Source of the DNA: a virus
Reading direction: 5' to 3' (one strand)
IMG/VR virus record: IMGVR_UViG_3300034168_000204
Coordinates: 1 to 38,352 of that record
Length of the DNA stretch: 38,352 nt
Shown: in pieces, positions 3,465-38,246 of the stretch
Numbering within the stretch: position 1 is the stretch's first letter
Layout: each line of letters opens with the position of its first letter
Notes under the pieces: generated by a model
The model's input: only the letters and a program-made list of their open reading frames with translations
Told to the model about the DNA's origin: nothing
Databases searched by the model: none
Translations under genes and position numbers: made by a program

Positions 3465-3632
3465 ATGGAACCAATGAAACACCACCAACACCGACAGCAC
3501 TACAGCCCGGCCGCCGAGCGCGCCGAATCACGCGCTGCAGCCGGTGCAGACTTCGCGGCCATTTTGCTAGTGGCCGGCGCCCTGACTGTGGGCGCCCTTT
3601 TTTACTTCGACATTTTTACAAAGGGGTTTTAA
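3465..3632 (+). CDS. Small single-pass membrane protein
   Basis: A 55-residue protein starting at the ATG after AAAAGGAAAACC. A longer in-frame reading from 3228 is discarded because it runs through the previous gene. Residues 1-29 are polar, His- and Arg-rich. Residues about 30-50 (AAILLVAGALTVGALFYF) form one membrane helix, with a short charged end. The function is not recognised. Small phage membrane proteins of this kind often act on the host envelope or in superinfection control, but nothing here proves that. Confidence 0.65.
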   Translation: MEPMKHHQHRQHYSPAAERAESRAAAGADFAAILLVAGALTVGALFYFDIFTKGF

Positions 3633-5533: not shown

Positions 5534-5549
5534 CCGGCCCCCGGGCCGG
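5534..5549. other. GC-only hairpin after the GC-rich genes
   Basis: CCGGCCC and GGGCCGG form a perfect inverted repeat with two central bases, 21 nt after the stop of the preceding gene. No T-run follows, so it is not a classical terminator. It marks the point where base composition falls from GC-rich to AT-rich and may weaken transcription into the next two genes. Confidence 0.35.
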
Positions 5550-5611
5550 ACAGGCCGCCCGCAAGACCAGCGCACAAGCTGGCAGCACGAGGCTATTTAT
5601 CCAACTATTCA

Positions 5612-5636
5612 AGCCAGTAAAACGAGGCTATTTTTT
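5612..5636 (+). repeat. 25-bp direct repeat, copy 1
   Basis: Matches 6162-6186 at 22 of 25 positions, including the exact 14-mer CGAGGCTATTTTTT. A third, shorter relative (ACGAGGCTATTT) lies at 5587-5598. Copy 2 is inside the primase gene, so this copy may be a recombination remnant of that gene. Confidence 0.6.
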
Positions 5637-5663
5637 AACTCAACAAACGGAGATTTTTAAATC

Positions 5664-5849
5664 ATGACTGTATCTAAGATGATTATTGAGCAAATTCAAT
5701 GCGTTTATTTTGATTTGAGCGACCTACTGGAAAAGCTGGATTGTGCAGCGATCAAGCTTGAAGACTTTGAAGAATTCGAGAACTTACAAGAATTCATCAT
5801 TGAACAAAAGCAAAAGATGGCTGACCTTGAAATTTCTTTAACGGAGTAA
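5664..5849 (+). CDS. Small acidic coiled-coil protein
   Basis: A 61-residue, strongly acidic protein. Residues about 8-58 form one long helix with heptad-like Leu/Ile spacing (DLSDLLEKLD, EFENLQEFIIEQ). The start follows CGGAG with a somewhat long spacing. Codon use is AT-rich, unlike the genes upstream, and the gene sits after a 150-nt gap. It is probably a protein-protein interaction or inhibitor type of protein; no family is recognised. Confidence 0.55.
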   Translation: MTVSKMIIEQIQCVYFDLSDLLEKLDCAAIKLEDFEEFENLQEFIIEQKQKMADLEISLTE

Positions 5850-6080: not shown

Positions 6081-6862
6081 AAAAACCCGCGCAGGGATTC
6101 GGCAGCCAACTGGGTGCCAATCCTCTGCTCGGTATCGTTGAAGTCCTCTCCAGCCTCGCCTAACCAGTAGACCGAGGCTATTTTTTTGGCCGTGGCCACG
6201 CCCATAGCATCGTTATCGGCAATCACTAGTGGATCACGAACACCCTTGGCGATTTCTAGCATATTCCCCGCAGAGAAACACACATGAATCGTATAGCGTT
6301 CGCGCAAATACTTCATTGCCCTACGCACAGACATACCCGTGGCAAACCCCTCACACAGAATATTGCGGCCTTTGGCATCAATGACCAGACTGGCGCCTTT
6401 GGTCTGTTGCCCTGACAAAAAGCGTTTTGTGCCGTCTTCCTGAATGAGCTGGCACCCAACCAAGTGCTGACCCACCCTCATTGGCAACACCAGTAGATCA
6501 TTCCACACTAGGCCTCGATCAGGAAACCCTTTGCGGATCAAGTAGGGGTGCTGCTGCTTGACGGCATTGTTCAGAATGAATGCGGCCTTATCTGCAGCCT
6601 TACGCTGACGCAGCTGGTGCTCGCGCTTGGCCGCCTCACGCTTGGCCGCAGCATTAGGATCGGGCACGAACGGCTCGCTAGATTTGTAAAGTATGTGTCT
6701 GTCATGTACGGCAAAGTTAATGATTGCGCCTTTGTGGCCATCAAAGATGTACGCGCCGTTCTGCTTTCTCGGGTGATCATCAGTGCCAACACGCACCCAG
6801 CGATCCAACACAAGGTCTTTGATCATGAGGCCATGATCCCTTGCAAACTCTTCAAAGGTCAT
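6077..6862 (-). CDS. Toprim-domain DNA primase
   Basis: A 261-residue protein that makes RNA primers for replication. The C-terminal half is a Toprim fold: ILCEGFATGMS with catalytic Glu171, FSAGN at 196-200, the DxD motif IADND with Asp216 and Asp218, and GEDFND at 238-243. The N-terminal part (residues 1-60) is a short domain with GAYIFDGHKGAIINF, and residues 70-95 are a charged Ala/Arg/Lys helix. No four-Cys zinc module is seen. The start overlaps the helicase stop as ATGA, so primase and helicase are probably translated together and act as a pair. It is shorter than cellular DnaG, as usual for phage and plasmid Toprim primases. Confidence 0.85.
   Translation of the reverse strand: MTFEEFARDHGLMIKDLVLDRWVRVGTDDHPRKQNGAYIFDGHKGAIINFAVHDRHILYKSSEPFVPDPNAAAKREAAKREHQLRQRKAADKAAFILNNAVKQQHPYLIRKGFPDRGLVWNDLLVLPMRVGQHLVGCQLIQEDGTKRFLSGQQTKGASLVIDAKGRNILCEGFATGMSVRRAMKYLRERYTIHVCFSAGNMLEIAKGVRDPLVIADNDAMGVATAKKIASVYWLGEAGEDFNDTEQRIGTQLAAESLRGFL
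6162..6186 (+). repeat. 25-bp direct repeat, copy 2 (inside primase)
   Basis: Lies within the Toprim region of the primase gene (codons around KKIASVYW). It matches 5612-5636 at 22/25 in the same orientation, so the two copies bracket the two AT-rich small genes and palindromic copy B. Confidence 0.6.
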
Positions 6863-8331
6863 GCTTTCCCCTTTGATTTAAGCCAAGCAATGTTGCGCGA
6901 CTTGATCCATGAAACTGTTTTGTGAGTAATTGGCGCGGGGTTTGTATGCAGCCCTCGGGGGTAGACGCCATACTTTTCTTTGTACTTCACAGCCGCATAG
7001 CCCTCTTTGTATCCCTTCGCTTTTGCAAAGAAGATCAGCTCAGAATAAAACTTCTGATTTTCAGACACGGCCTCGCGCTTAGTAATCTCCAGTTCTGTCA
7101 GCTGGCCCGGCACGTTGAGCAGCTGCTTCTGAGCTTTCTCAAACCCGCACTCACCACAAACCCGATCAGGCCAGACCCATAAAGTCTTACAGGCCGGACA
7201 CTTGGCCTCGGTCTTTTCCTTTTCTGTGGGCTCTTTCTTTGCAGTCTCGGCGCCATTCTGCAGCTCGGTCACGCCCTCATCAAAAAGCTTGTCCCATTCT
7301 TTCCTAAACCGGAGGTAATTACCCGAATGATCAAGCCACAGGCCGTATTTTTTTCCCTCATAAGGCCGCATGATCCGACCCATTTGCTGCACATGACTGC
7401 TGAACGACTTAGAAAACGGCCTAGCCGACACGCCAATCATCACATCAGGGACGTCAAAACCTCTGGTCAGTATGTCTGTGGCAATTAGTCCGTTGATTTT
7501 CGTGTCAGGCCTGCTGAAATCCTCGATTGTCTCGGCTTTAAAGTCGTCATCCTCTTTGTAACTGATCGACACAAAGTTATAACCGCGCTCATTAAACTGG
7601 CGCACAAGGTCGCGGCCATGCTCAACACCGGAGGCAAAGACAACTGTCTTGCGTGGGCCACCGAACACTTCATTTGTTTTATTGATCCACTCTTCGACAA
7701 TGTCGCCCGTGATCTTCATGCCGCGCTCAGACACATCATCAGATGACCACTCTCCGGCAACCTTCTTGGCGCCTGTCATGTCGATTTCTTTGGCAATGTA
7801 GATCTTCAACGGAGTAAGCCACTTGTTCTCGATCAGCTCGCCAGTAGGCTTGGCACCTACTACATTCGTGTAGGTATCACCCAGCCCATTCGTAAAAGGC
7901 GTGGCCGTGAGGCCGATCACCTTCATCTCTGGGCGGTCTTTGATGAACTGAACAATCTGCTTGCGCTGAACATGACACTCGTCAATGATGAGCATAGACA
8001 CATCAGGGAAGTTGTCCCTGCTTTCTAGTGTCTGCGCGCTGCATACTTGGATCTTTTCATAAGGCCTGTAGCGCCAATGATCCGCCTGCATGACACCATG
8101 ATTGATTCCATAGTTACCAAGGCGGGTACTGGTTTGGTTTACCAGTACGATGCGGTCAAGCACCATCGCTACATTCTTAAGCTGCTTGGCCTGTTCTAGC
8201 ATGATGGCCATCGCCACCTCTGTCTTGCCAAACCCTGTGGGTGCGTAGAGTAGTTGGCTTGTGTGGCCATCCTTAAAACCCTGAGCGAGCTTCTCCACGA
8301 CTTCCGCTTGATGCGGTCTTAAACTGAGCAT
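6859..8331 (-). CDS. SF2 DNA helicase (DEAD/DEAH-like)
   Basis: A 490-residue helicase. Motifs are in order: Q-like RPHQAEVV at 5-12, Walker A APTGFGKTEV at 30-39, DECH at 117-120, TATPF at 142-146, TRGFDVPDV in the second RecA domain at 289-297, and motif VI QQMGRIMRP at 315-323. A zinc ribbon follows with Cys378, Cys381, Cys392 and Cys395. A basic C-terminal tail could bind DNA. This is a replicative or recombination helicase of the RecG/UvsW-like SF2 kind rather than a hexameric DnaB. It follows a ParB-like gene and precedes the primase with a 4-nt overlap. The ribosome site AGGAG is clear, with a small hairpin just upstream. Confidence 0.92.
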   Translation of the reverse strand: MLSLRPHQAEVVEKLAQGFKDGHTSQLLYAPTGFGKTEVAMAIMLEQAKQLKNVAMVLDRIVLVNQTSTRLGNYGINHGVMQADHWRYRPYEKIQVCSAQTLESRDNFPDVSMLIIDECHVQRKQIVQFIKDRPEMKVIGLTATPFTNGLGDTYTNVVGAKPTGELIENKWLTPLKIYIAKEIDMTGAKKVAGEWSSDDVSERGMKITGDIVEEWINKTNEVFGGPRKTVVFASGVEHGRDLVRQFNERGYNFVSISYKEDDDFKAETIEDFSRPDTKINGLIATDILTRGFDVPDVMIGVSARPFSKSFSSHVQQMGRIMRPYEGKKYGLWLDHSGNYLRFRKEWDKLFDEGVTELQNGAETAKKEPTEKEKTEAKCPACKTLWVWPDRVCGECGFEKAQKQLLNVPGQLTELEITKREAVSENQKFYSELIFFAKAKGYKEGYAAVKYKEKYGVYPRGLHTNPAPITHKTVSWIKSRNIAWLKSKGKA

Positions 8332-8366: not shown

Positions 8367-9212
8367 TTATTTAGATTCTAGTGCCTTTTCTGACCTCTCA
8401 GCGCGCTTCTTCCAATAATTCATTTGCTTGATCATCTCAGCATTTTTGTTCTGGAATTCATTGCGTGATTGGGTCATTGTGCGAAGCTTAAACTCAAGGT
8501 CTTTGACCTCGGCTCGCAACGACTCTATGGTTTCTTGAACCTCTGCGCGCGCTTCCTCAGACACAGGCAGCGTCTTGATGGCCAGCATATCTTTGAGCTT
8601 TGTATTCTCTTCTGTCAATGCGATCTGCTCAATAGCCAGCTCATGCATCTTGTCATCTTCGGTGTACTCTGGCTCTGGCGGAGGAGGGGGCGCAGCTGAA
8701 CGGCCAATGTTTGTCGTATTCATTCTGCGACCATTCTTGTCAACCACAGATGTCTTCTCTAAACCCAACATCTTTTTGACACGGCCAACTGTAGAAATGG
8801 AAACATCGCATAGCTCGGCAATAAAAGCATCGGTTGAATTACCGTATTCAATGTCTTCCAAGGCCATCTGAACCACATAGCGGCGTTCTTCTGGGGTACG
8901 TGGCTTACCATGCTTGCTGTTGGCCTTTAAACAGGCTTTGAAAGCATCGCGCTTGGTGCCTTGATTGATGACCGCCTCAATGTCCAAGAACCCTGCGCGC
9001 TTGTGTGCGTGAAACCTATGGAAACCATCGCTTGGCCAGTAGGACTTGCCATCAAACCATAAATCAATAGGCGGGAATGTGTCTTTACCCTCAAGCAATA
9101 TCTCGGTGTAGTGTTGGACTAAGGGCTCGTCAATTTCTTTGCGGGGCTGGGTGCCGCCGTCTAAACGAATCTTTTGGAGCTTGACTCTCTCAATAATAAT
9201 TTCTGTTGTCAT
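8367..9212 (-). CDS. ParB/Sulfiredoxin-fold protein with HTH and coiled coil
   Basis: A 281-residue protein starting at the ATG after AAAGGAAAATA; a longer in-frame start at 9275 lies inside the upstream gene. Residues 1-90 are a ParB N-terminal-like domain with the signature SDGFHRFHAHKRAG at 61-74. Residues 105-150 contain a helix-turn-helix (TDAFIAELCDVSISTVGRVKKML). A Pro run (about 195-203) leads to a coiled coil (about 210-275). Such proteins bind specific DNA sites, and some are CTPases or nucleases. In phages they occur as partition-like or transcription regulators beside replication genes. No parA is visible. The start overlaps the preceding stop as TAATG. Confidence 0.8.
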   Translation of the reverse strand: MTTEIIIERVKLQKIRLDGGTQPRKEIDEPLVQHYTEILLEGKDTFPPIDLWFDGKSYWPSDGFHRFHAHKRAGFLDIEAVINQGTKRDAFKACLKANSKHGKPRTPEERRYVVQMALEDIEYGNSTDAFIAELCDVSISTVGRVKKMLGLEKTSVVDKNGRRMNTTNIGRSAAPPPPPEPEYTEDDKMHELAIEQIALTEENTKLKDMLAIKTLPVSEEARAEVQETIESLRAEVKDLEFKLRTMTQSRNEFQNKNAEMIKQMNYWKKRAERSEKALESK

Positions 9213-9400
9213 TATTTTCCTTTTGTTGATGTTCTTTTGGATGCGCGGCCTGCCCAGCAAGCGGCGCAGTGCCATTTTGTGTGGCCTAGTTGGATGCCAC
9301 CCTCTGGTGGTTTCATTTCATTGCAACTATTGCACTCCTTGTATTGATGTACCGGCTGCTTGCTGCCGATTGATAGTTGTTGGTTAGCAAATCCATTCAT
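9212..9400 (-). CDS. Small zinc-finger protein
   Basis: A 62-residue protein with CNSCNE (about residues 23-28) and CAACW (about 45-49), a CxxC...CxxC zinc-ribbon pair, followed by a basic tail. This is a common small phage protein type, and DNA or RNA binding is likely. The start overlaps the upstream stop by 4 nt, and its stop overlaps the ParB-like start, so the three are translated as a unit. Confidence 0.65.
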   Translation of the reverse strand: MNGFANQQLSIGSKQPVHQYKECNSCNEMKPPEGGIQLGHTKWHCAACWAGRASKRTSTKGK

Positions 9401-9632: not shown

Positions 9633-10088
9633 TCATGCCCTAGCCTCCTCTTGAGCTTTGCTGCGCTGCTTGAGCTCGTAGTCCAACTTCACAATCAAGT
9701 CTGCAATATCTGAATCAATCAGGTGCAGCTTCTTAGTCCAGCGCGAAATCGTCAGCTTAAGATCATGGATAAACTCCTCTTTCATAGAGTCATCCGTCAT
9801 CACATCGACCATTAGCCTGTAGCCGCCGCCAGTGCTTCTGTCAGTTGGTAAGCTGACAAATGCGCGAACGTGTGTTGGCTCATCGGCCAATATCGTAATC
9901 CGGCACCGTTGAATCAGGGTTCTAGCCTGATCCCTTCGGTAGTTAATTGCCGCCTCAGTATCATCCCATTCAAAGTGGCTGTGAAGAATGCTTGATTTAT
10001 CAGCAGCCTCCATGATTACATCGTCAATCATCAGAACGCCGCCATTACGCCGCGCCATTTTCTCTAGTAGTTTCCGTTCTGCATCCAT
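9633..10088 (-). CDS. Conserved phage protein, unknown function
   Basis: A 151-residue protein with a good AGGAG ribosome site. It contains HSHFEWDDTEAAINYRRDQA at about residues 37-56, a motif (FEWDD-x-AA-xx-YR-xxQAR) that recurs in hypothetical phage proteins near replication genes. A C-terminal charged helix follows (about 105-148). The function is unknown. It is the first gene downstream of the pentanucleotide array in the same transcription direction, so its mRNA may carry the array as its leader. Confidence 0.65.
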   Translation of the reverse strand: MDAERKLLEKMARRNGGVLMIDDVIMEAADKSSILHSHFEWDDTEAAINYRRDQARTLIQRCRITILADEPTHVRAFVSLPTDRSTGGGYRLMVDVMTDDSMKEEFIHDLKLTISRWTKKLHLIDSDIADLIVKLDYELKQRSKAQEEARA

Positions 10089-10105
10089 AAGTTTCTCCTT
10101 GTTAA

Positions 10106-10795
10106 ATGCCTGCTAATCCCCGCCTTGCCAGACCTGTCCGATCCTCGCCATGCCTGCCATACCTTACAGCGCCTTGCCCCGCCGATCCAATCCGTGCCCT
10201 GCCTGCCGATCCGCGCCTTACCCTACCTCTCCGTGCCTCGCCTCTCCGTGCCTGCCTTTCCACGCCACTCCCGACCGATCCAATCCGCAACGAGCCATAC
10301 CTGCCATGCCGCGCCTAGTCATACCGAGCCGCAACCCTCCGTGCCTGCCGATCCAATCCTCACCTTTCCGTAACACGCCCAGCCTCGCCTGCCTCGCCCC
10401 ACCACGCGCGTCCCAGACGCTCCGTGCCATGCCTGCCCCGCCTTGCTTCGCCATGCCTTGCCACGCCACACCTGCTATACCGCGCCCCACCGAACCCGTC
10501 CACTACGGGCCATGCCTGCCGTGCCTTGCCTTGCCCCGCCCAACCAAATCGGGCCTCTCCACGCCTGTCCTGCCATTCCGTGCCGCGCCTCACGAAGCCA
10601 TGCCTCGCCTATCTCCGCCCCGCCTGCCTTGATGCGCCAAACCTCTCCGCACCGGGCCTTACCAGTGCTCGCCTTGCCACGCCTGCCATGCCTTGCCAGT
10701 CCTCGCCCAGACAATCCGCACCGCGCGTTGCCCCGCCATGCCTGCCTTGCCGGGCCGGGCCATACCGTTCCGGTACGAGCCCCGCCTCGCCTGCG
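10106..10795 (-). repeat. Degenerate pentanucleotide array, about 690 nt
   Basis: The stretch between two minus-strand genes is built of 5-nt units of the form CCNNN on the plus strand (GGNNN on the minus, transcribed strand), with occasional 4-nt CCTG units that shift the phase. Frequent units are CCATG, CCTTG, CCGTG, CCTCG and CCGAT. The 12-mer CCGATCCAATCC occurs at 10182, 10275 and 10348. Because 5 is not a multiple of 3 and few stops occur, every frame on both strands is open over long distances. These frames give repetitive Arg/Gly/His or Pro/Cys/Ser strings and are not genes. The minus strand has GG about every 5 nt, which would allow many two-tier G-quadruplexes. No gene is seen here. 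Confidence 0.85.
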
Positions 10796-10799
10796 GCGA

Positions 10800-11465
10800 T
10801 TAGTGGATACTAAACTTGGATTTAATTGTTTCCTCGCGGTCGCTCTCCACTACTTGGAACAAGCCAAACCCACAGCCAGCGCTTGCTTTGCTGTCTGGCC
10901 GGCCTGCTCCAATCCCTACCTGTAAGCCGCAACGGCTCACAAGGTTAATTACGTCAACAGTTTTAAACTGATCCATGTCAAAACGAACGCGCAGCTTAAC
11001 TGCCCATTCTTTGTACATCGGGCGTGATCGCACATCCACTACGCCAGTAGCGTTGCGGGTGTGAGCCGTATACACATCACTCTTGCCATAGACGCGCACA
11101 AGTGGAATGCCATCTTGCTTGTCCCAGCCGTCAGCCTCAACGAATGTTGAGAGCTTTGCCAGCGTCATCTTGAAGCCAACCAATCGGCAGGCCGAGATCA
11201 TTGCAGCGCGGAATGATGCAGCATTCACACCCTCCCAGCCATCCATGCTGCGGTAGCGGGCATCTTCTGCCTCTTTGTCATAGTCGCGGGCATCGCGCAC
11301 CTTCCTATTGCCTGCAGACTTGCCCTCCTGCATCTTGGCCATAAGCTCGGCCTTCTTGCTAAAGCGCTCGACAACCAGAGGCGCAATACCTTCAAGGTAA
11401 AGATCCACAGTTGCGAACTTGGGCGGTGAAATTACGTATGTGTTTTCGACTTGTTTGGTAGCCAT
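10800..11465 (-). CDS. Conserved phage protein with RAMP/Cas7-like features
   Basis: A 221-residue protein starting after AAAGGAATAAATC. The sequence order resembles RAMP (Cas5/6/7-type) proteins. It has an N-terminal strand with DLYLEGIAPLVVERFS (about 21-36), an internal NAASFRAAMISACRLVGF (about 81-98) like the SSLRG-AxR-helix of Cas7, a KLRVRFDMDQF strand segment (about 156-166), and a C-terminal glycine loop VGIGAGRPDSKASAGCGFGL (about 183-202) like the RAMP G-rich loop. I recognise it as a widespread hypothetical phage protein without a settled function. The RAMP link is my reading and has not been tested. It sits directly upstream of the pentanucleotide array in the same transcription direction. 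Confidence 0.6.
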   Translation of the reverse strand: MATKQVENTYVISPPKFATVDLYLEGIAPLVVERFSKKAELMAKMQEGKSAGNRKVRDARDYDKEAEDARYRSMDGWEGVNAASFRAAMISACRLVGFKMTLAKLSTFVEADGWDKQDGIPLVRVYGKSDVYTAHTRNATGVVDVRSRPMYKEWAVKLRVRFDMDQFKTVDVINLVSRCGLQVGIGAGRPDSKASAGCGFGLFQVVESDREETIKSKFSIH

Positions 11466-37610: not shown

Positions 37611-37896
37611 AGTAAGCCTCCGCTTCTATTGCCTTGTCATCTATCCAAATATCATAGGTAGGTTTGTTGAAATTTAAAGTGGTGTACTTGCAGCCCCAGT
37701 AAGCAAGTTGTACTTTAGTAAATTCAGACCAATCTTTACCACTATTGCCGCCCCGGGCAGTCCAGTAATGGATCTCATTGCCTTGGTCAAATAGCTCGTT
37801 AATCTTAGTAATGCGCTGCACAATAGGCATTGACTCTGAATAGTTGCTAGATGGGCTGTTACAGATAGTGCCGTCAATATCAACCATGTATTTCAT
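37588..37896 (-). CDS. Small HAD phosphatase, possible GmhB role
   Basis: A 102-residue HAD-fold hydrolase. VDIDGTIC with nucleophile Asp6 and Asp8 (motif I), YWTARG with Thr46 (motif II), a Lys near 78, and IWIDDK with Asp86 and Asp87 (motif IV). It is a minimal, cap-less HAD. In heptose pathways a HAD phosphatase (GmhB) removes the 7-phosphate between the two HldE reactions; this gene lies between kinase and cupin, so that role is plausible. Known GmhB is longer (about 190), and this one could act on another sugar phosphate. Confidence 0.7.
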   Translation of the reverse strand: MKYMVDIDGTICNSPSSNYSESMPIVQRITKINELFDQGNEIHYWTARGGNSGKDWSEFTKVQLAYWGCKYTTLNFNKPTYDIWIDDKAIEAEAYFEHSSNW

Positions 37897-38246
37897 TGGC
37901 TGTCTCCCGGCTCAACTCGATAGTTGTCTTCTACGGAATCAGCAGTTGAGACTTCCAAGATCACACCTGCTGCTAGGCAAACTAGCTGGTGAGGGAGTAA
38001 TGGTGGGTTGTGCCATGTATCCCCTACGTTGAGTATCTTTTCATGGCGGCTGGCATCTTTGGTGTCAATCCAAATAACCTTGAATAGACCACTTTGGACT
38101 AGCCAAGTCTCATCTTTCTCAGCGTGGAAGTGCATAGAAAACTTAGCACCCTTGCGGAAAGTCATTAACTTCCCGCAGTATTTATCGTTGGTAGCCCAGA
38201 TTAGCTCCGACCCCCAGCCCTTTTTCACTATTCCTTTGAGTTGCAT
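37893..38246 (-). CDS. Cupin-fold sugar-phosphate isomerase-like protein
   Basis: A 117-residue protein with the cupin metal motif HFHAEKDETW (His39, His41, Glu46), preceded by KGWGSELIW and YCGKLMTFRKG as in mannose-6-phosphate isomerase-type cupins. The second half has GDTWHNPPLLPHQLVCLAAG. It probably binds a sugar nucleotide or phosphate. Small cupins of this type accompany heptose-modifying gene sets. It starts inside the tail of the upstream gene with a large 65-nt overlap. Confidence 0.75.
   Translation of the reverse strand: MQLKGIVKKGWGSELIWATNDKYCGKLMTFRKGAKFSMHFHAEKDETWLVQSGLFKVIWIDTKDASRHEKILNVGDTWHNPPLLPHQLVCLAAGVILEVSTADSVEDNYRVEPGDSQ

Follow-up and report, generated by a model that had tools for sequence, protein, structure and literature searches.

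A GG-pentanucleotide array beside a Vipr-family gene in a viral genome as a probable RNA-guided VIPR locus

The DNA analysed here (hereafter the window) is the IMG/VR virus record IMGVR_UViG_3300034168_000204 at its full length of 38,352 nucleotides. On its minus strand, a gene for a 221-aa protein stands upstream of a degenerate pentanucleotide array, downstream of which a 151-aa protein is encoded. The array lies in the gap between these two open reading frames, and we took the minus strand as its sense (mRNA) strand, which is also the coding sense of its neighbors. The positions of all features are collected in Table 1.

Table 1. Positions of the genes, array elements and candidate target discussed in the text.
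Feature	Position	Strand	Basis or remark
Candidate vap (Vipr-accessory) gene, 151 aa, phrog_15946, helical model	9633..10088	-	Conserved linkage to vipr and array
Intergenic stretch with putative vrRNA guide array	10089..10799	-	GG every 5 nt, GGCA slips; parsed part 10115-10791, 13 segments between twelve slips
First GGCA slip, putative cassette boundary	10743..10746	-	Unit parse
Further slips (lowest base)	10684, 10625, 10571, 10517, 10439 (GGCG), 10390, 10346, 10302, 10253, 10204, 10155	-	Unit parse
Example of a putative guide cassette, 11 units	10688..10742	-	Unit parse
vipr, predicted RAMP (Cas7/Csm3-fold) protein, 221 aa, phrog_4652	10800..11465	-	Profile against PDB 36pp_D, hhalign with SUSP2 homologue, predicted fold
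Candidate target, DNA polymerase gene	L227:3045-5114		Sites near 3558-3580 (-) and 4437 (+) for two guides of the L178/L186 array

Over positions 10106-10795, the identity at a lag of five bases was 0.502, whereas 1000 dinucleotide-shuffled versions averaged 0.320 (z 11.4). Pairs of CC starts five bases apart numbered 92, against 32 in the shuffles (z 12.8), and the signal returned at the harmonic lags of 10, 15 and 20. The array of CCNNN units (GGNNN on the transcribed strand), which had been proposed from the letters alone, is consequently real. Nor is it confined to this contig: an identical array is carried by two other contigs (L185 and L193), and the same grammar is found in dozens more.

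The minus strand was parsed into units by dynamic programming, which yielded 124 units of 5 nt, 12 of 4 nt and one of 9 nt. Among the 5-nt units, 117 begin with G and 113 have G as their second base, while position 3 was C in 69, A in 30, T in 24 and G in a single unit, and positions 4-5 (hereafter NN) were mixed in base content. Since A occupies position 3 in 30 of the 124 units, the motif is not strictly GGY but GGH. The 4-nt units, or slips, read GGCA in 11 cases and GGCG in one, and are spaced 44-59 nt apart with a single exception of 78 nt. The 9-nt unit lies inside this longer interval and ends in AGCA, which we interpret as one more slip, the thirteenth, whose first G has changed. The sequence-only reading had mentioned a few 4-nt phase shifts; these are present, at regular intervals and almost all with the same letters. 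The segments that they delimit mostly comprise 8-11 units, and longer words do recur, as had been noted: CCGATCCAATCC (sense strand: GGATTGGATCGG) is present in three cassettes. The claim that the region is open in all frames, on the other hand, was wrong, with 3, 5 and 3 stop codons in the sense frames and one in each antisense frame of the parsed part. The array contains no long identical repeat unit of the kind that would make up CRISPR direct repeats between spacers, and a tandem-repeat search of it returned short fragments only, not the near-identical units of a microsatellite or tandem copy array, in agreement with the earlier view that it is neither. No Rfam family matched the window at gathering scores, and promoter and terminator scans gave results around the level of shuffled sequence.

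VIPR systems, first described in 2026, consist of the RAMP protein Vipr, a vap gene and vrRNAs (PMC13142463). A profile built from 22 relatives of the 221-aa protein matched PDB chain 36pp_D, "SUSP1 Vipr protein", at E 5e-29, the next chain being at 0.17; the window protein by itself matched SUSP1 Vipr at E 0.027, and L040, a relative fetched by array pattern, matched 36pp_D at 6e-33. By hhalign, the family profile and the SUSP2 homologue were related with a probability of 99.5, and both this homologue and the window protein belong to PHROG 4652, a family of unknown function in PHROG. The AlphaFold2 model of the window protein (pLDDT 83.5) was matched by Foldseek to Csm3/Cas7 chains of type III and VII CRISPR complexes (best E 3.1e-5), and VIA-align against Csm3 chains gave Z 10.5 with an rmsd of 3.2 over 149 residues; 36pp was not among the Foldseek matches listed, from a structure library reaching up to April 2026. 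The family also shares a conserved glycine-rich C-terminal stretch. Judged from these profile matches and the predicted fold, the product of the upstream gene is a member of the Vipr family and a Cas7/Csm3-like RAMP.

The 151-aa downstream protein (PHROG 15946) was modeled with a pLDDT of 84.8 and a pTM of 0.44, and a Foldseek search of this model against the PDB found no match below E 1. Neither it nor the window Vipr matched anything in Pfam or PADLOC. Published accessory genes are vap1-6 (PMC13142463), and hhalign between the 151-aa protein and the gene after vipr in SUSP2, taken to be vap1, gave a probability of 0.2. The candidate accessory gene of the window locus thus differs from that of SUSP2, and its candidacy comes from its conserved linkage to the other two elements. 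It was found in all 45 vipr records that were searched whole and in 70 of 71 loci fetched with the Vipr protein, lying directly past the array in 66; in three of the 71, its open frame reaches back over part of the array. L192 has it ahead of the array, and the L183 contig breaks off within the array. A sense-strand array was located 3' of vipr in all 71 Vipr-fetched contigs, a set that includes duplicates and in which the array of L185 and L193 is identical to that of the window. The distance was below 200 nt in 69 of them, the outliers being L173 (228 nt) and L192 (449 nt). Whether the array keeps its place beside the same gene in other phages, a question put by the sequence-only reading, can hereby be answered in the affirmative.

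The same association was seen when the array itself served as the query. At least 120 IMG/VR contigs were returned by a scan for twelve GGNNN units, and of the 120 listed, 79 had a vipr relative (profile E up to 1e-3), with 58 of these outside the profile's members; the array was on the strand of vipr in 78 of the 79. Vipr relatives accompanied 31 out of 35 listed contigs with an array score of at least 100 and 50 out of 64 with a score of at least 60, the other 14 having none in the sequence examined. By comparison, neither array nor vipr occurred in 25 control contigs retrieved with guide patterns; some of these overlap, and together they amount to 212,812 bases. A separate array scored by the GGNNN scan (L098:5147-5396) alternates GGTYC and GGCCA, has no stop in six frames and no vipr in the sequence examined, and is probably a coding repeat, i.e. 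a false positive of the scan.

Bacterial genome contigs contributed 14 vipr loci from one scan with closer alignment, 12 of them with an array. Four of the 14 are not titled as MAGs or bins, namely those of Azohydromonas, Bradyrhizobium, Roseococcus and a Rhodanobacteraceae strain. In a phage collection, the window protein retrieved 31 records, distributed over Mycobacterium (25) and Gordonia (5) phages and one cyanophage. Gene order differs in the seven cluster F mycobacteriophages examined, where the array comes before vipr. The relatives in M. smegmatis phages, among them the array-bearing Saal and DRBy19, would provide a laboratory model. In Cyanophage Cy-LDV1, two separate GGCA-slip arrays (L003:4779-4924 and 5537-5726) flank the gene after vipr, which is a relative of the candidate vap. 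Some annotated genes overrun or cover the noncoding array, e.g. gp52 of phage Philus (L296:17617-18549) and gp48 and gp49 in L001. Moreover, vipr is annotated as 933 nt in Philus and 600 nt in DRBy19, and the overruns in these two phages are likely start-site misannotations.

The unit grammar of the window was shared by 55 unique arrays, its own included. In these, G mostly occupies positions 1-2, and 386 out of 461 GGCA-to-GGCA intervals measure 39-64 nt. The entropy of positions 4-5 is about 2 bits, apart from slip-adjacent units. G at position 3 occurs in 0-3% of cases in the nine units preceding a slip and in up to 18% farther off. The unit preceding a slip is biased to YAA/YAC, and the one following it less so. 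Besides GGCA and these unit biases, no constant sequence was found from -10 to +14 nt of the slip start over 473 boundaries, and no constant 3' tail was seen after the cassettes, whereas each of the separate vrRNAs of type II (SUSP1-like) systems ends in a structured tail that does not vary. With the same repeat finder, the repeat runs of SUSP2 and L040 were seen to give way to non-repeat sequence, in keeping with the published tails.

Slip-bounded segments of at least 30 nt numbered 668 in 71 arrays (window included, L183 omitted for its short array, near-duplicate contigs kept), with 363 distinct at 88% identity and 150 recurring. After removal of duplicates, 53 arrays remained, in which 82 cassettes were present with a follower in two or more arrays; for 50 of the 82, the follower was not the same throughout. 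Cassettes are gained, lost and reordered among phages. As the window cassettes recur in L185 and L193 only, whose arrays are identical to its own, the conservation of NN was measured on relatives. Over all pairs of cassette copies, substitutions at positions 1-5 amounted to 105, 84, 273, 64 and 98, respectively, in 1464 units each. With only the most divergent pair taken from each of 69 shared cassette families and the last unit left out (611 units), the counts were 32, 26, 92, 22 and 26. Position 3 thereby holds 92 of the 140 substitutions among positions 3-5, a binomial p of 5e-15 against an expectation of one third, which presumes independent sites and equal mutation rates. The changes at position 3 are mostly between C and T (102 of 141). 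NN letters, which differ between cassettes, are kept inside a cassette common to different phages. Together with the drift of position 3, this suggests that the variable bases carry information and fits the prediction of a guide code, thereby supporting NN as what is read. The sequence-only reading was right that the GG spacing is kept, but by treating the remaining bases as free to vary it missed the information in NN. Within the units, NN was altered in two of 69 first, 42 of 542 inner and 19 of 69 last units, from which a guide seems to start directly after the slip, with a looser last unit.

In published VIPR systems, the vrRNAs contain 9-16 YNNGG repeats, the NN of which reads double-stranded DNA with one base skipped; this reading mostly puts the skipped base over codon wobble positions (PMC13142463). 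The Vipr members studied bind RNA of alternating GGY and NN, the inferred natural targets include satellites and prophages, and the authors place VIPR before CRISPR, whose RAMPs interrupt pairing at every sixth base (PMC13142463). The window locus resembles these VIPR systems (reference structure PDB 36pp, SUSP1 Vipr) in its homologous RAMP, its sense-strand intergenic GG-pentanucleotide array with hypervariable NN and its minimal phage locus of two genes. While SUSP2 has repeat runs and then non-repeat sequence, the window has one continuous array of several cassettes with GGCA slips. Its guides would mostly be 7-10 units long if the last unit is punctuation, at or below the published range. 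Most likely, the window locus belongs to a VIPR type other than II. The main text of the VIPR preprint refers to "staggered arrays with overlapping vrRNAs" (fig. S18), to which the slip-punctuated continuous architecture may correspond, and cassette shuffling and the position-3 signature are absent from that main text (PMC13142463). Our search of an open-access library listed no further relevant paper on VIPR or phage pentanucleotide arrays.

Class 1 CRISPR systems share with the locus the RAMP fold (by prediction), the glycine-rich C-terminal stretch and, by analogy, a filament formed on guide RNA. The window locus differs from them in lacking CRISPR repeats and spacers, in its 5-nt guide unit, in being phage-borne and in having a single RAMP gene. 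TIGR-Tas systems are likewise phage-associated, RNA-guided and distinct from CRISPR, but differ in protein family and array format.

We consider it very probable that the locus is a phage-borne VIPR system, the array of which encodes guide RNAs against the DNA of competing mobile elements. On the minus strand, vipr is followed by the putative vrRNA array and then by the candidate accessory gene. The array would be transcribed as a (GGHNN)n RNA, on which Vipr subunits of Cas7/Csm3 fold would align, one per 5 nt, gripping GGH. The NN pairs of about 7-10 successive units would then form a gapped DNA address, with two bases read and one skipped, and the ribonucleoprotein would bind to a competing mobile element where its DNA matches this address, and silence it. 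GGCA slips would part the cassettes, each probably corresponding to one guide, such that the first unit after a slip would be part of the guide and the last unit before the next slip its punctuation. We infer the production of the RNA, its binding, the 1-nt skip code and repression from the published work on SUSP1 and P. fulva; for repression of a rival in particular, we lean on these published relatives because target searches gave no firm target. A more far-reaching proposal, which we hold with slightly less than even confidence, is that the arrays of this clade are guide libraries exchangeable from phage to phage. GGCA-bounded cassettes would recombine, and immune memory would be shared without Cas1-like acquisition. 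The slip would break the reading frame, so that one guide filament stops and another begins within a seamless transcript, in place of the structured type II 3' tail, and guides lying over codons would read conserved protein motifs, e.g. of rival DNA polymerases.

In the searches run, no target was found for the window guides. Against its own genome, the best matches were 14/20, 13/16 and 10/12, none of them good. Exact 18-base scans with two window guides gave one and three matches (two distinct sequences). The match in L292 is in the wobble register of a 403-aa frame, but its tenth unit fails, and the others are out of register with the longest open frame. When the remaining window guides were compared to the three whole matched contigs, none exceeded the control skips; the second best score was 6.5 at skip 1, with controls reaching up to 6.6.

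The guides of relatives, in broad searches overall, showed no clear excess at the 1-nt skip. A total of 525 guide strings searched against the collected loci produced 305 weak matches (mismatch bins 0-5) at skip 1, compared to 205-237 in seven controls (skips 0, 2 and 3 plus shuffles), with no top match above the controls. For 459 trimmed guides against 5.25 Mb on both strands, a count from which L210-L230 were omitted because they had been fetched by guide pattern, there were 275 matches at skip 1 and 217-300 in eleven controls, i.e. no excess. The 41 guide strings of cluster F mycobacteriophages and Cy-LDV1 had 0, 9, 11 and 8 matches in 11 phage regions at skips 0-3, respectively; the best was 16/18 at skip 1 in the cyanophage, about what chance gives for the number of trials.

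Exact 1-nt-skip scans of viral_contigs found no match for one shared guide and 21 matching contigs for another, which is present in 12 arrays and spells the peptide DYAT(V/I/M)KDY antisense. In four of the 21 (L213, L215, L221 and L227, which are 92-99% alike across most of their shared length), the site lies within a gene for DNA polymerase. In the array of the relatives L178/L186, this first guide is accompanied by a second, whose site is in the same gene, about 880 bases away on the opposite strand. The two match at 17/18 and 18/20, both in the codon wobble register and with the 1-nt skip only; the second guide scores 8.8 (-log10 p), against at most 5.4 for skips 0, 2 and 3. From a third array (L125), one guide fits the same polymerase contigs at 13/14. 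The nearest named relatives of these contigs are Pelagibacter phages, e.g. HTVC027P. When units were permuted in the L178/L186 array against that element alone, none of 400 permutations reached the observed pair, while 25 out of 400 (about 6%) did so with the 12 first-guide arrays and all 21 contigs. The G+C content is 56-57% in the array contigs and 33-34% in the polymerase target, and long reading frames elsewhere (L210, L211/L220/L223 and L214) fit the first guide as well. In view of this wide permutation, the differing base compositions and the other frames, the polymerase pair is a candidate only, suggesting that the L178/L186 guides may hit a phage DNA polymerase gene. Around that polymerase, 82 loci (80 from IMG/VR and two phage records) gave 270 matches at skip 1 and 161-234 in fifteen controls, but the best skip-1 score of 7.9 was below the controls' best of 9.9.

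The want of a firm target is also what one would expect if the GG lattice were a binding scaffold without guide function, where Vipr or another filament protein coats RNA or DNA every five bases and leaves the rest free, and GG is indeed the strongest constraint in the arrays. With such a scaffold alone, positions 3, 4 and 5 should drift equally, whereas NN is kept within shared cassettes while position 3 drifts. Furthermore, cassettes move as units, and published relatives read NN (PMC13142463), which together make the scaffold improbable. The suggestion of an RNA scaffold or a sequence-periodic binding protein had nevertheless come close, given that the neighbor is a Vipr RAMP of a GGY/NN-binding family; what it left out was the guide information.

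It is still harder to credit an operon regulated by two-tier G-quadruplexes or R-loops of its G-rich transcript. The sense strand, with its GG every 5 nt, could in principle form such quadruplexes, but these need neither a strict 5-nt phase, nor a 4-nt slip of a single sequence, nor a G-poor position 3, and would not predict conserved letters in the loops, i.e. in NN. Very little weight can likewise be given to the array as a recombination hotspot or mosaic boundary kept for the exchange of flanking genes. The reshuffling of cassettes between arrays does show that recombination or copying takes place there, as the hotspot idea put forward earlier would have it, but guide turnover accounts for this exchange without such a reading, and since the same accessory gene comes directly after the array in 66 of 71 loci, the array is not usually a mosaic boundary. 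Before Vipr was matched, we had also weighed helical-phase (10.5 bp) and recombinase-footprint readings, which were dropped.

VIPR has only recently been added to the known routes of RNA-guided DNA recognition, and the window locus and its relatives offer an independent test of its code from sequence comparison, in which the letters thought to be read are conserved and the ignored letter drifts. Cassette shuffling, in turn, makes the origin of VIPR guides testable.

A few further configurations were encountered. Nearly slip-free GGNNN arrays of 715-1558 nt adjoin vipr relatives in L057:7605-9162 (-), L019:6301-7015 (+) and L102:4354-5152 (-), flanked on their other side by an SF2 helicase related to the window gene at 6859-8331; possibly these are a VIPR type with a helicase accessory. 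In L091:3331-5318 (+), arrays are found beside vipr with a relative of the window's ParB-like gene (8367-9275) between. Lastly, the window itself carries a cysteine-dioxygenase-like gene at 37893-38246 (-) (phrog_7851, E 1e-40), here in a phage contig.
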